NCBI GenBank assembly: GCA_903840315.1
Contig: CAIMFK010000001.1
Span: 1 to 53,223 of the forward strand
Direction: 5' to 3'
DNA: 53,223 bases
Origin: an uncultured Candidatus Saccharibacteria bacterium
GTDB lineage: Bacteria > Patescibacteriota > Saccharimonadia > Saccharimonadales > UBA4665
Of the stretch, positions 23,228 to 28,076 are shown in pieces. Positions within the stretch are counted from its first letter, which is position 1, and each line of letters begins with the position of its first letter. Position numbers and translations under genes: made by a program. The notes under the pieces were generated by a model, which was not told where the DNA came from, searched no databases, and saw only the letters and a program-made list of their open reading frames with translations.

Positions 23228-23770
23228 CTATTCGGCTGGTTTTTGTTTTGTCTGATTACTTTTATTAAAATTCTCAGATTGAGCAATTGTTTTTTCAAGA
23301 ATTTTCGCGAATTCCTTAGCCTGCTCTTTGCTCATGCCTATTCTGGATATTGTTTGTTGTTGGTATTGTCCGTTTGGCTGCTGAAAGAAATTTATAACAA
23401 TACCATTTGTATTGGCAACAATTTCTGTCTTGTCGCTATATACAATCCTATTATCCATAGGAACTAACATTAGAATTGGTGGATACTTGGATAAATCCTG
23501 ATCGTTCTTATCTGAATCAAGACTTTCGTAGCCAGCTAGGGACCATACTCTGTTTGCCTCATCATCTTCAATATTAAAGTGGGAAATTAGCAACAATAGT
23601 AGCTCTTGGGTTGGTCTTTTTCTTCCCTCTTCAATGGAAATTAATTGCTTTTCATCAATTTCCACAGATCCACTAACCTCTGAAATGCTTTGGTTTTTGT
23701 TCTGTCTAATTCTTTGCAACTTCAAACCAAGGCTCTTATAAGGTGTGTTGCTTTTTTTCTCCATACTCAT
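23228..23770 (-). CDS. XRE-type HTH protein with C-terminal DUF3467-like domain
   Basis: Residues about 10-70 form a Cro/CI-type HTH (LGLKLQRIRQNKNQSISEVS, then VEIDEKQLISIEEGRKRPTQ). Residues about 110-168 read RIVYSDKTEIVANTNGIVIN, then QQQTISRIGMSKEQAKEFAK, which fits DUF3467 (antisigma-like small domain with MS..hAk.l). I start at 23770 because a TAGAAT box ends 7 nt upstream. It is divergent from murB, and a palindrome lies between the two promoters, so control of its own gene and murB is plausible. Confidence 0.75.
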   Translation of the reverse strand: MSMEKKSNTPYKSLGLKLQRIRQNKNQSISEVSGSVEIDEKQLISIEEGRKRPTQELLLLLISHFNIEDDEANRVWSLAGYESLDSDKNDQDLSKYPPILMLVPMDNRIVYSDKTEIVANTNGIVINFFQQPNGQYQQQTISRIGMSKEQAKEFAKILEKTIAQSENFNKSNQTKQKPAE

Positions 23771-23790
23771 TAATTTAATTCTAGCCCTAA

Positions 23791-23808
23791 CTTGCATAGC
23801 CATGCAAG
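23791..23808. promoter_or_regulatory. Palindromic operator candidate between XRE regulator and murB
   Basis: Seven-bp arms CTTGCAT/ATGCAAG flank AGCC. It lies between the TAGAAT box of the XRE gene and the TATAAT of murB (23819-23824), where a Cro/CI-like dimer would block both promoters. Confidence 0.5.
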
Positions 23809-23831
23809 TAAAAAAAGATATAATAGAATTA

Positions 23832-24857
23832 ATGGTTATAGAAAAAAATACAGATTTACGATTATTTTCAACAATGCGGCTCGGAGGTAAAGCCAAGTAC
23901 AGTGCCAGAATTGAAAACAAAAATGATCTAATCAGGGCTGTGAACTTTGCTAAGGAAAATAATCTTCCAATTATTTGTGTTGGCAAAGGTAGCAACATCA
24001 TATGGAGAGATGAAGGTTTTAATGGACTTTTAATAATCAATGAAATTAAAGGCATTAGATTTGAAGATAATGGGGACCACGTACTAGCATCCTCTGGATC
24101 GGGAGAAATATGGGATGATCTTGTCACAAAGTCCGTTGAATTAAATCTTTCCGGTATTGAATCCTTGGCTTTAATTCCAGGAACAACCGGAGCAACTCCG
24201 GTACAGAATGTTGGAGCATATGGCCAAGAGGTTTCTGATACTATTTCAGAAATTGAAATGTTTGACCTTCAAAATGGTCAATTCGTCACAATTAAAACAG
24301 AAGACTGCGATTTTGGATACAGAACAAGTCGTTTCAAAAAACAAGACAAAAACAGATTTATAATCATTAATGTTAATTTTAAATTATCCAAGGACTATCC
24401 AAATCTACCTCTATATCCGGCGGTTCAAAATTACCTAGACGATAACGACATTAAGGTAATTAGTCCATCCGTTGTTAGAAATGCAGTAATAGCAATTAGA
24501 AGCGCTAAATTGCCAGATCCTGCGGAAGTAGCCAACAATGGCTCCTTCTTTTCAAATCCAGTTATCGATGAATCGGACTTTATCGAAATTCAAAAAAAAT
24601 ATGAAGATATTGTTTATTGGCAAACAAGCGATGGAAAATATAAATTATCCGCAGCCTGGTTAATTGACAAAGCAGGTTTTTCAAATTTCGAAGACGAGGA
24701 AACTGGAATGGCTACATGGCCCACTCAATCACTTGTCATTGTTAATCGCAGCGCCAATAGTACAAAAAGTTTACTAAATTTCAGAGATAAGATTTTTAGT
24801 AAGGTTGAATCATTGTTCGGTATTAAACTAGAACAAGAGCCCGAGCTTCTGCCTTAA
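23832..24857 (+). CDS. murB: UDP-N-acetylenolpyruvoylglucosamine reductase
   Basis: A flavoenzyme reducing the MurA product to UDP-MurNAc. Blocks visible are the FAD site STMRLGGKAKYSA, ICVGKGSNIIWRDEGFNGLL, LALIPGTTGATPVQNVGAYG, FGYRTSRFKK, and the catalytic Ser in NNGSFFSNPV, with AAWLIDKAGF near the end. The ATG at 23832 is chosen since TATAAT ends 7 nt upstream and family homology starts there. At 341 residues it is the long (type I) form. Its stop shares TTAA with glyA. Confidence 0.95.
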   Translation: MVIEKNTDLRLFSTMRLGGKAKYSARIENKNDLIRAVNFAKENNLPIICVGKGSNIIWRDEGFNGLLIINEIKGIRFEDNGDHVLASSGSGEIWDDLVTKSVELNLSGIESLALIPGTTGATPVQNVGAYGQEVSDTISEIEMFDLQNGQFVTIKTEDCDFGYRTSRFKKQDKNRFIIINVNFKLSKDYPNLPLYPAVQNYLDDNDIKVISPSVVRNAVIAIRSAKLPDPAEVANNGSFFSNPVIDESDFIEIQKKYEDIVYWQTSDGKYKLSAAWLIDKAGFSNFEDEETGMATWPTQSLVIVNRSANSTKSLLNFRDKIFSKVESLFGIKLEQEPELLP

Positions 24858-26131
24858 TTATCGCTAGGTAATGGGAATTTTTTAGAAAATTCTACTACTT
24901 CTTCTCTGATCTTTTCTAAATCTTCAAGACTATTTCTAGATTCAATGGATCGCTTCATCCAATCTGCAATTTTTTGCATATCTTTTTCTTTGAGACCTCT
25001 AGTCGTTATTGCTGGGGTGCCGAGTCGAAGTCCACTTGGCCTAAATGGAGGTAATTTATCATCGGGAATTGAGTTACAATTTGCAGTTAGGCCAATTTTA
25101 TCAAAAATCTCTTGAGCTTCTCGCCCATCAATACCAAAGCTGCTAGGCATATCGATCATAATTAGATGATTATCCGTACCGCCGGTTACAAGCTTGAAGC
25201 CTTCACTAATTAAATCAGAGGCAAGCTGTTTTGAATTTTTTAAAACCTGCTTTGCGTATTCCTTAAACTCAGGCCTTAAGGCTTCTTCGAATGCTACAGC
25301 TTTTGCAAGGATATTGTTCATATGAGGACCGCCCTGCATGCCCGGAAAAACTTCTCTATCAATAAGCGTTGGTAAATTTTCAATTGTTTTTTCGGGAGCT
25401 TTTAATGGATTAGAAACTATACCTTTGCTTAGAATTAGACCACCTCTTGGTCCTCTTAAAGTTTTATGAGTTGTTGTAGTCATAATATGGAATCCAAAAT
25501 CAAGTGGATTTGGTAAAGCCTTACCTGCGATAAGACCGGCAATATGAGCCATATCTGCCATAAGAACTGCACCAACTTCGTTGCCGATATCTACAAATTT
25601 TTGATAATCTAAGCTTCTTGGGTAGCCGCTAAATCCAGCAATAATTAATTTAGGCTTTTCTCTCAATGCAACCTTTCGCATTTCCTCATAATCTATTTCA
25701 CCAGTTTCAACATCAGATAAGCCATACCTTACAAATCTATACAATTTAGCACTAGACGTAACGGGAGCTCCATGGGTTAAGTGACCTCCATGATCGAGAC
25801 GCATTGCCAATATTGTATCTCCAGGATTGAGCCAAGCCTGATAAACAGCAATATTGGCTGGGGCACCACTGTGTGGCTGAACATTGGCATGGTCGGCGCC
25901 AAACAACTCTTTAGCTCTTTCGATTGCTAAAGCTTCAACCTTATCTGTATTTTCTTGTCCGCCATAGTATCTTTTTCCAGGATAGCCCTCAGAATATTTA
26001 TTTGTAAATATACTGCCCAGAGCAGTTAATACGTCCTTGGAAACATAGTTTTCACTAGGTATTAATTCAAGACCATCTCTTTGTCTTGTTTCTTCAGCAT
26101 CAAGCAATTCCTGTAAAATTTTATCCTTCAA
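24854..26131 (-). CDS. glyA: Serine hydroxymethyltransferase
   Basis: A PLP enzyme converting Ser and THF to Gly and methylene-THF. Seen are ELIPSENYVSKDVL, NKYSEGYPGKRYYGG, HANVQPHSGAPANIAVYQA, MADMAHIAGLIAG, and the PLP Lys in TTTTHKTLRGPRGG, with SGLRLGTPAITTRGL near the end. At 425 residues it has family length. The start is TTG with AAGGAG 6 nt before it, one of the clear Shine-Dalgarno starts here. It feeds FolD and the folate cycle. Confidence 0.95.
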   Translation of the reverse strand: MKDKILQELLDAEETRQRDGLELIPSENYVSKDVLTALGSIFTNKYSEGYPGKRYYGGQENTDKVEALAIERAKELFGADHANVQPHSGAPANIAVYQAWLNPGDTILAMRLDHGGHLTHGAPVTSSAKLYRFVRYGLSDVETGEIDYEEMRKVALREKPKLIIAGFSGYPRSLDYQKFVDIGNEVGAVLMADMAHIAGLIAGKALPNPLDFGFHIMTTTTHKTLRGPRGGLILSKGIVSNPLKAPEKTIENLPTLIDREVFPGMQGGPHMNNILAKAVAFEEALRPEFKEYAKQVLKNSKQLASDLISEGFKLVTGGTDNHLIMIDMPSSFGIDGREAQEIFDKIGLTANCNSIPDDKLPPFRPSGLRLGTPAITTRGLKEKDMQKIADWMKRSIESRNSLEDLEKIREEVVEFSKKFPLPSDN

Positions 26132-26240
26132 GAGAATCTCCTTAAAAAGTTATATTTTTATTGTAGCAATTAGTTTTGAATGAGCATATAATAAAAATCA
26201 CCGGATAAAAAACAAAAACACAATTTAATACTACAAGTGA

Positions 26241-26246
26241 TATAAT
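26241..26246 (+). promoter_or_regulatory. -10 box of HTH-murA
   Basis: TATAAT lies 9 nt before the ATG at 26256. The leader is at most about 3 nt. Confidence 0.6.
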
Positions 26247-26255
26247 TATTTTTAT

Positions 26256-27779
26256 ATGAATGACAATAATACTCAAATTGGCGAATTAATTTCTCATATA
26301 AGGCATGAAAAAGGCTTAACTCAAGCTGCTTTTGCTAGCCTATTAGGCACTAGTCAATCTGCTATCAACAGAATTGAGCACGGCAAACAAAATCTTAGCA
26401 TAGAAACTATAGCAAGGATTAGTGATGTCTTAAATCAACAAATAGTTAGCTTATCTAGTGGATCAATTAGTTTACGTATCGAAGGTGGTCATGAACTAAG
26501 GGGTGAGATTGCGGTTAAAACCAGCAAGAACGCTGTTGTTGGTCTTTTATGTGCCTGTCTGATAAATAAGGGAACTACAACCATAAAGAAAGCTCCTAGA
26601 ATTGAGGAAGTAAACAGATTAGTTGAAGTGCTAAAAAGTATTGGTGCATCTGTACGTTGGATTAATGAAACTGATTTAGAAATTAAACCACCTCAAACAA
26701 TTGATTTGAGCAAGATGGATAAAGCTGCTGCTCGAAAAACTAGAAGTGTAATAATGTTCATTGGGTCCATGATGCATAGCTTAAAGGAGTTCAACATCCC
26801 TTACGCTGGAGGCTGTGAACTAGGAAGAAGAAGTGTTTTGCCCCACATATATGCACTCGAAGAGTTTGGAGTAGATATTGACACAGTAAGTGGACATTAC
26901 AAAGTTAAGGTTAAAAAGAGTCTACCTAAAAGAACTGTTGTACTGTATGAATCTGGAGACACCACAACTGAAAATGCCCTATTTGCTGCTGCAGGGTTTG
27001 ATGGCGAAACCACAATAAAAATGGCAAGTGCAAATTATTCAGTACAAGACATATGCTACTACCTTGAAAAACTTGGAGTCAAAATTGAAGGCATCGGAAC
27101 CACAACACTAAAAGTTAAGGGTTCTAGCTATATTAAGAAAAATGTTACCTATTATCCAAGTGAGGACCCTGTTGAAGCCATGACATTCATAGCAGCTGCT
27201 GTGACCACAGACTCCTCTATCACCGTAAAAAGAGTTCCAATTGAATTTGTTGAATTAGAACTTTTAAAGCTTGAGAAAATGGGACTTAAATACAAATACG
27301 GAGAAATATACAAGGCAGATAACAAAAAAACCGACTTGGTTGATTTGAAGATATATAAGCATAACGGAACTCTTAAGGCAGCTGAAGAAAAAATCTATGG
27401 ACGTCCGTTCCCCGGATTAAACATAGACAATCTTCCCTACTTCGTTCCGATTGCTGCAGTTGCAAAAGGAAAGACTTTGATTCATGACTGGGTATACGAA
27501 GATAGAGCCCTAATGTTCACTGAAATGAAAAAAATTGGCGTAGATCTCGATTTAGCTGATCCTCACAGGGTTTTTGTTAATGGACCCACAAAATGGAGAG
27601 CAGCAGACTTGGTTTGTCCATCAGGAATTAGGCCAGCAGTAATGATTCTAATTGGAATGCTAGCAGCTGGTGGCACCAGTACATTAAGAAATGTTTATAC
27701 TATAAATAGGGGGTATGAAGACTTGGCTGCAAGACTGAATAGTCTTGGTGCTAAAATTACAGTTTTACATGGTCTATAA
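26256..27779 (+). CDS. murA: UDP-GlcNAc 1-carboxyvinyltransferase with fused N-terminal XRE HTH
   Basis: Residues 6-62 are a complete Cro/CI-type HTH (IGELISHIRHEKGLTQAAFA, then GTSQSAINRIEHGKQNLSIE). From residue about 70 a full MurA follows: RIEGGHELRGEIAVKTSKNA, PRIEEVNRLVEVLKSIGA, the catalytic-loop Cys in AGGCELGRRS, then EDPVEAMTFIAA, RPFPGLNIDNLPYFVP and TINRGYEDL. MurA transfers enolpyruvate to UDP-GlcNAc, the first committed step to peptidoglycan. The total of 507 residues equals a normal MurA plus the HTH. The frame is continuous, with no frameshift or second start needed. The fusion suggests a DNA-binding, possibly self-regulating enzyme. Confidence 0.93.
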   Translation: MNDNNTQIGELISHIRHEKGLTQAAFASLLGTSQSAINRIEHGKQNLSIETIARISDVLNQQIVSLSSGSISLRIEGGHELRGEIAVKTSKNAVVGLLCACLINKGTTTIKKAPRIEEVNRLVEVLKSIGASVRWINETDLEIKPPQTIDLSKMDKAAARKTRSVIMFIGSMMHSLKEFNIPYAGGCELGRRSVLPHIYALEEFGVDIDTVSGHYKVKVKKSLPKRTVVLYESGDTTTENALFAAAGFDGETTIKMASANYSVQDICYYLEKLGVKIEGIGTTTLKVKGSSYIKKNVTYYPSEDPVEAMTFIAAAVTTDSSITVKRVPIEFVELELLKLEKMGLKYKYGEIYKADNKKTDLVDLKIYKHNGTLKAAEEKIYGRPFPGLNIDNLPYFVPIAAVAKGKTLIHDWVYEDRALMFTEMKKIGVDLDLADPHRVFVNGPTKWRAADLVCPSGIRPAVMILIGMLAAGGTSTLRNVYTINRGYEDLAARLNSLGAKITVLHGL

Positions 27780-27817: not shown

Positions 27818-27892
27818 GCGGGTGTCGTATAGTGGCTAATATGCTAGCCTTCCAAGCTTGAGACGCGAGTTCGATTCTCGCCACCCGCACCA
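27818..27892 (+). tRNA. tRNA-Gly (anticodon TCC)
   Basis: Acceptor GCGGGTG/CACCCGC, anticodon loop CTTCCAA (TCC), T-loop TTCGATT, and encoded CCA. There is one T-T mismatch in the anticodon stem. Confidence 0.93.
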
Positions 27893-27903
27893 AAACAAAT
27901 GCC

Positions 27904-27980
27904 GCCCTGATAGCTCAGTTGGATAGAGCAGGAGACTTCTAAGCTCAAGGTCGGGGGTTCGAATCCCTCTCAGGGCACCA
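27904..27980 (+). tRNA. tRNA-Arg (anticodon TCT)
   Basis: Acceptor GCCCTGA/TCAGGGC, D-stem GCTC/GAGC, anticodon loop CTTCTAA (TCT), T-loop TTCGAAT, and encoded CCA. The anticodon stem GGAGA/GCTCA has non-Watson-Crick pairs at both ends (G27-A43 and A31-G39). Confidence 0.92.
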
Positions 27981-27998
27981 TTACTTAACAATACATAC

Positions 27999-28076
27999 GG
28001 CGGGAGTAGCTCAATTGGTTAGAGCGTCGGGTTGTGGTTCCGAAGGCCGTGGGTTCAATTCCCATCTCTCGCCCCA
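27999..28076 (+). tRNA. tRNA-His (anticodon GTG)
   Basis: The loop TTGTGGT in stem TCGGG/TCCGA gives anticodon GTG. The extra 5' G (position -1) is encoded and faces discriminator C, as in bacterial tRNA-His. CCA is encoded. The ATPase start codon follows only 16 nt after the tRNA. Confidence 0.95.

Follow-up and report, generated by a model that had tools for sequence, protein, structure and literature searches.

Architecture of the xre-murA locus

The window, the whole 53,223-nucleotide stretch analysed here, comes from an uncultured Candidatus Saccharibacteria bacterium and harbours the sole MurA-family gene of its genome, xre-murA (26256..27779, + strand), which starts with ATG and encodes a protein of 507 amino acids. 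The product opens with an XRE/Cro-CI helix-turn-helix (HTH) domain (residues 8–60, 26277..26435, +), matched by Pfam HTH_3 at residues 15–60 (E 2e-12, 47.4 bits against a cut-off of 23), in which the recognition helix region, TSQSAINRIE, spans residues 32–41 (26349..26378, +). A flexible linker (residues 60–71, 26433..26468, +) leads into the MurA domain (residues 72–505, 26469..27770, +), delimited by NCBIfam, alignment and structure matches; PRK09369, the NCBIfam MurA model, covers residues 72–503, and Pfam EPSP_synthase residues 76–491 (E 4.4e-43). The AlphaFold2 model (mean pLDDT 89.3) has four helices within residues 2–59, then the disordered linker, with pLDDT below 50 at residues 64–69, and finally a MurA fold, and its top Foldseek matches are solved MurA structures. 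Profiles and model together place an EPSP-synthase fold across the whole enzyme domain.

There is no in-frame ATG, GTG or TTG between codons 2 and 124 of xre-murA, so that a complete MurA could not be translated separately from a standard codon, and a separate internal start is ruled out as its source. A preliminary description of this DNA had proposed that HTH and MurA form one continuous frame; this is confirmed, with an intact HTH, a linker and a full MurA all contained in the gene.

The divergent neighbour of xre-murA is glyA (24854..26131, −), beyond which lies murB (23745..24857, +), encoding the next step of the pathway, both identified from the ORF list and Pfam. The gene order murB-glyA-xre-murA is conserved in Saccharibacteria. 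The listed murB start is provisional, and the actual one probably lies further inside the frame; the listed start is overlapped by an ORF containing an XRE-like stretch (23228–24127, −) that runs divergently to murB. Directly 3′ of xre-murA, three tRNA-like sequences were spotted by eye (27818–28075, +).

The enzyme domain retains the MurA catalytic residues

Equivalents of E. coli K22, N23, R91, C115, R120, D305, R331, R371 and R397 are all present in XRE-MurA, and these nine catalytic positions are conserved in 113 of the 113 subfamily members compared. The counterpart of Cys115 in the catalytic loop is C187 (codon 26814..26816, +); with the other catalytic residues also in place, the earlier claim of a complete MurA with its loop cysteine is borne out.

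XRE-MurA has its fold and conserved catalytic residues in common with canonical MurA (TIGR01072; E. coli MurA), but its TIGR01072 score falls short of the cut-off (293.5 against 392.7 bits), and it carries the N-terminal HTH and has P[PS][GA][IL]RP (residues 455–459, 27618..27632, +) in place of the TDLR motif with D369. Comparison across the subfamily showed that TDLR is absent from all its members, fused and unfused, with the same replacement. In the 751-kb genome, protein and Pfam searches returned just one EPSP-synthase-family gene; four Mur ligases are encoded there too, besides the murB of the window. Because no other gene in the genome could supply the MurA step, XRE-MurA is very probably active as a MurA.

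A predicted operator overlaps the xre-murA promoter

An extended −10 element, TGATATAAT (26238..26246, +), ends 9 nt before the xre-murA ATG, and no Shine-Dalgarno sequence was seen ahead of this start codon. The −10-to-ATG distance is conserved among relatives, which supports the leaderless promoter suggested in the preliminary description, although a generic sigma-70 scan gave no −35/−10 pair at this promoter.

Overlapping the −10 is a predicted operator, AATACTACAAGTGATATA (26227..26244); its left arm is weak, its right arm good. Upstream of fused genes the consensus is an 18-bp palindrome, TATAYCR-N4-YGRTATA, which mostly starts 26–31 bp before the ATG and likewise overlaps the extended −10; some other Patescibacteria have two copies ∼62–72 bp apart. 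Arms matching at six or more of seven positions with a 4-bp gap occur in 55 of 97 upstream regions against 15.2 in shuffles, and perfect palindromes with this gap in 17 of 97 against 1.1 (even gap sizes are also enriched, as expected with one shared centre). Chance palindromes are ruled out by the shuffles and the fixed position. At the same promoter position the actinobacterial genes have a counterpart, ATCTCA-N4-TGAGAT. Promoter conservation by itself is an insufficient explanation, since it accounts neither for the left arm nor for the palindrome seen in Actinobacteria, nor for the loss of the palindrome together with the HTH.

The HTH domain and the operator change together

When palindromes were scored at a fixed threshold and mapped onto the tree, a site accompanied 56 of 63 intact fusions (the remaining seven having none at the threshold used) and 0 of 23 genes with an absent or decayed HTH, loci L070 and L056 being counted as fused in these tallies. 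In seven phylogenetically independent pairs, HTH and site change together in an average of ∼6.6 and oppositely never (p 0.016). No palindrome accompanies the four loci whose recognition helix has decayed (L105, L128, L072 and L093). Covariation is also seen at Ser33, which opens the recognition helix: Thr replaces it in three proteins, each from a different family, and in all three the half-site reads AGC instead of AYC, a form found at none of the 79 remaining Patescibacteria sites. The recognition helix is near-invariant across phyla, and the dN/dS of the HTH is 0–0.06 where saturation allows a value, indicating purifying selection.

These comparisons support a specific palindromic target for the XRE domain. 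The preliminary description had envisaged an enzyme that binds DNA and sets the transcription of wall genes. DNA binding is strongly supported on comparative grounds, namely the palindrome in the promoter of the gene itself, its loss with the HTH, the half-site covariation and purifying selection; the wider role is not upheld, the evidence pointing to the enzyme's own gene only. Decay of the recognition residues across relatives, named at the outset as the observation that would speak against a regulatory HTH, is not found in most of them.

Distribution and evolution of the fusion

A survey of MurA architecture across Patescibacteria, proposed earlier as a check, found the fusion throughout the window's order (a match from HTH to C-terminus in 32 of 32 genomes, among 380 Patescibacteria-level relatives sampled) and in several other families. 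Further families possess this MurA subfamily but no HTH, and for the majority of the 380 relatives the only MurA is a distant one (∼30–37% identity). Named relatives are mostly Candidatus Saccharibacteria. A close relative was also found in 12 of 296 genomes sampled from Actinomycetota, the phylum of Raineyella, with full length in eleven of the twelve, and in one Streptomyces and one Nonomuraea record.

A MurA-domain tree sets the subfamily apart from canonical MurA with full support, and the branches that diverge first within the subfamily are unfused. The fusion appears to have been gained once (support 83/85), with subsequent losses and at least eight fused/unfused changes on the tree. The actinobacterial loci (L072, L076, L077 and L083–L092) branch inside one Saccharibacteria family, f2 (supports 96/87 and 91/98). 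Trees uniting Saccharibacteria without the actinobacterial rows were rejected (p-AU 2.6e-62 and 7.2e-40), in tests whose groups were defined once the tree was known and whose actinobacterial rows differ in amino-acid composition. Since the tree puts the actinobacterial copies within a single Saccharibacteria family, it suggests that gene and operator were transferred from Saccharibacteria to Actinobacteria.

Targets and proposed mechanism

Exact copies of ATCTCAN4TGAGAT occur once in seven of eight actinobacterial genomes (3.6–9.7 Mb) and twice in the eighth, and in every one of them the xre-murA promoter is among the sites; the reversed control occurs in none of the eight. The strict palindrome is present in exact form in 23 of 61 genomes of the window's order, and twelve of the loci retrieved proved to be at xre-murA. 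No site scoring 18 or more was found at murB in the longer Saccharibacteria loci scanned. A regulon motif search of the window's genome had no power (55 sites at two or fewer mismatches, the reversed control giving 76). Because the palindrome is essentially unique to the xre-murA promoter in the eight actinobacterial genomes, and no site of that score was found at murB in the Saccharibacteria loci scanned, the supported target is xre-murA itself, and the best reading of these site patterns is that XRE-MurA would be a dedicated autoregulator, not a general wall regulator.

Palindromes were also observed beside RNA genes. The 23S-5S rRNA spacers of six Saccharibacteria genomes, L198 (G693), L199 (G687), L222 (G712), L212 (G713), L208 (G704) and L178 (G679), contain one or two copies, and in five of the six ATGGAC[AT]TC[AG]AC lies between the palindrome and 5S. 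The spacer palindrome is real in a minority of genomes and absent from that of the window; it might mark a second target, be the site of a different XRE protein or form an RNA hairpin. Two further Saccharibacteria genomes have exact palindromes close to tRNA genes (L175 position 1500, L158 position 1500).

We consider it likely, judging from sequence comparison, that XRE-MurA is an autoregulator which, through the operator at its own promoter, limits its own synthesis by blocking RNA polymerase. The XRE domain of the enzyme would bind the palindrome at the leaderless promoter, most likely as a dimer; an 18-bp palindrome suits an XRE dimer. Protein bound over the −10 would block RNA polymerase, and the enzyme would thereby hold down its own production. 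Autorepression is the simplest reading because of the overlap between operator and −10 and because several relatives have a TTGAC-like −35 immediately upstream of the operator; judged by the position of the site, the effect is probably repression rather than activation. A substrate or product of MurA might alter DNA binding, and sensing of such a ligand is plausible if speculative. Simple concentration feedback would need no ligand.

A broader possibility is that the protein is a ligand-gated regulator of the wall pathway, sensing UDP-GlcNAc or PEP and setting several wall genes. The domain logic fits, the enzyme-repressors PutA and BirA provide precedents (PMC6978683) and murB is close by in a conserved gene order, but the essentially single operator per actinobacterial genome and the lack of a site scoring 18 or more at murB in the Saccharibacteria loci scanned make this unlikely. 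It could also be that a free-standing XRE regulator binds the palindrome while the fused HTH has some other role, as other XRE genes are present (one of them beside murB in the window) and similar palindromes occur in some 23S-5S spacers; yet the operator is lost with the fused HTH, varies in step with one residue of that domain and accompanies the gene into Actinobacteria, and we find this explanation quite improbable. That the HTH is a passive fold (for stability, dimer formation or nucleoid localization) and the palindrome an ordinary promoter feature seems very improbable, for while the HTH is absent or decayed in several related lineages and the right arm looks like an extended −10, a −10 element does not account for the left arm, the actinobacterial sites lack a TATAAT arm and the near-invariant recognition helix sits in a domain under purifying selection.

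Relation to known systems

Streptomyces-type loci have the XRE-MurA architecture of the window, at 55–57% identity, and their promoters have a palindrome at the same place as in Saccharibacteria. In the two genomes checked, the gene adjoins aconitase, as does SCO5998, which lies beside SCO5999 (PMC12161575). On the basis of this neighbour gene, rather than of the SCO5998 sequence, Streptomyces-type XRE-MurA appears to be MurA2 (SCO5998/sven5810/vnz_28735). MurA2 is a second MurA beside the canonical one, whereas XRE-MurA of the window is the only one. Published work places MurA2 among the targets of BldM-WhiI (PMC4125116), reports SigB dependence for SCO5998 (PMC8346170) and counts it as one of two enzymes of this kind in Streptomyces coelicolor (PMC12161575), while overexpression of murA2 did not reproduce a whiI phenotype (PMC11005364); the relevant portions of these four papers make no mention of an HTH or of autoregulation of MurA2. 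Autoregulation by XRE-MurA can be extended to an enzyme-plus-operator module that moved from Saccharibacteria to Actinobacteria and there turned into MurA2, a reading we offer tentatively and with the balance somewhat against it.

Among characterized proteins, BirA and PutA are enzyme-repressors, or trigger enzymes: metabolic enzymes that use a DNA-binding part to regulate a gene within their own pathway (PMC6978683), as is predicted here for XRE-MurA. They differ from it in enzyme and in DNA-binding fold, and their control by ligand is established. PRK08154 (NF006015), an XRE-shikimate-kinase-like family whose model matches the HTH of XRE-MurA, likewise has an XRE HTH N-terminal to an enzyme-like domain, but that domain is a different one and the family is by name a regulator of benzoate catabolism, not the MurA of the cell. 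No description of an XRE-MurA fusion was found in the literature covered, which takes in only a minority of subscription journals, and the literature search found no peptidoglycan biosynthetic enzyme binding its own promoter; to our knowledge none is known to do so.

Taken together, the XRE-MurA fusion is real and widespread and probably functional, and it would be an enzyme-repressor in kind, placed where wall synthesis begins. It offers a concrete candidate circuit for the control of wall synthesis in Saccharibacteria, and it predicts a hidden regulatory role for Streptomyces MurA2, already studied as a developmental target. Actinobacteria include known hosts of Saccharibacteria, and the tree suggests that gene and operator moved jointly from Saccharibacteria into the phylum of these hosts.
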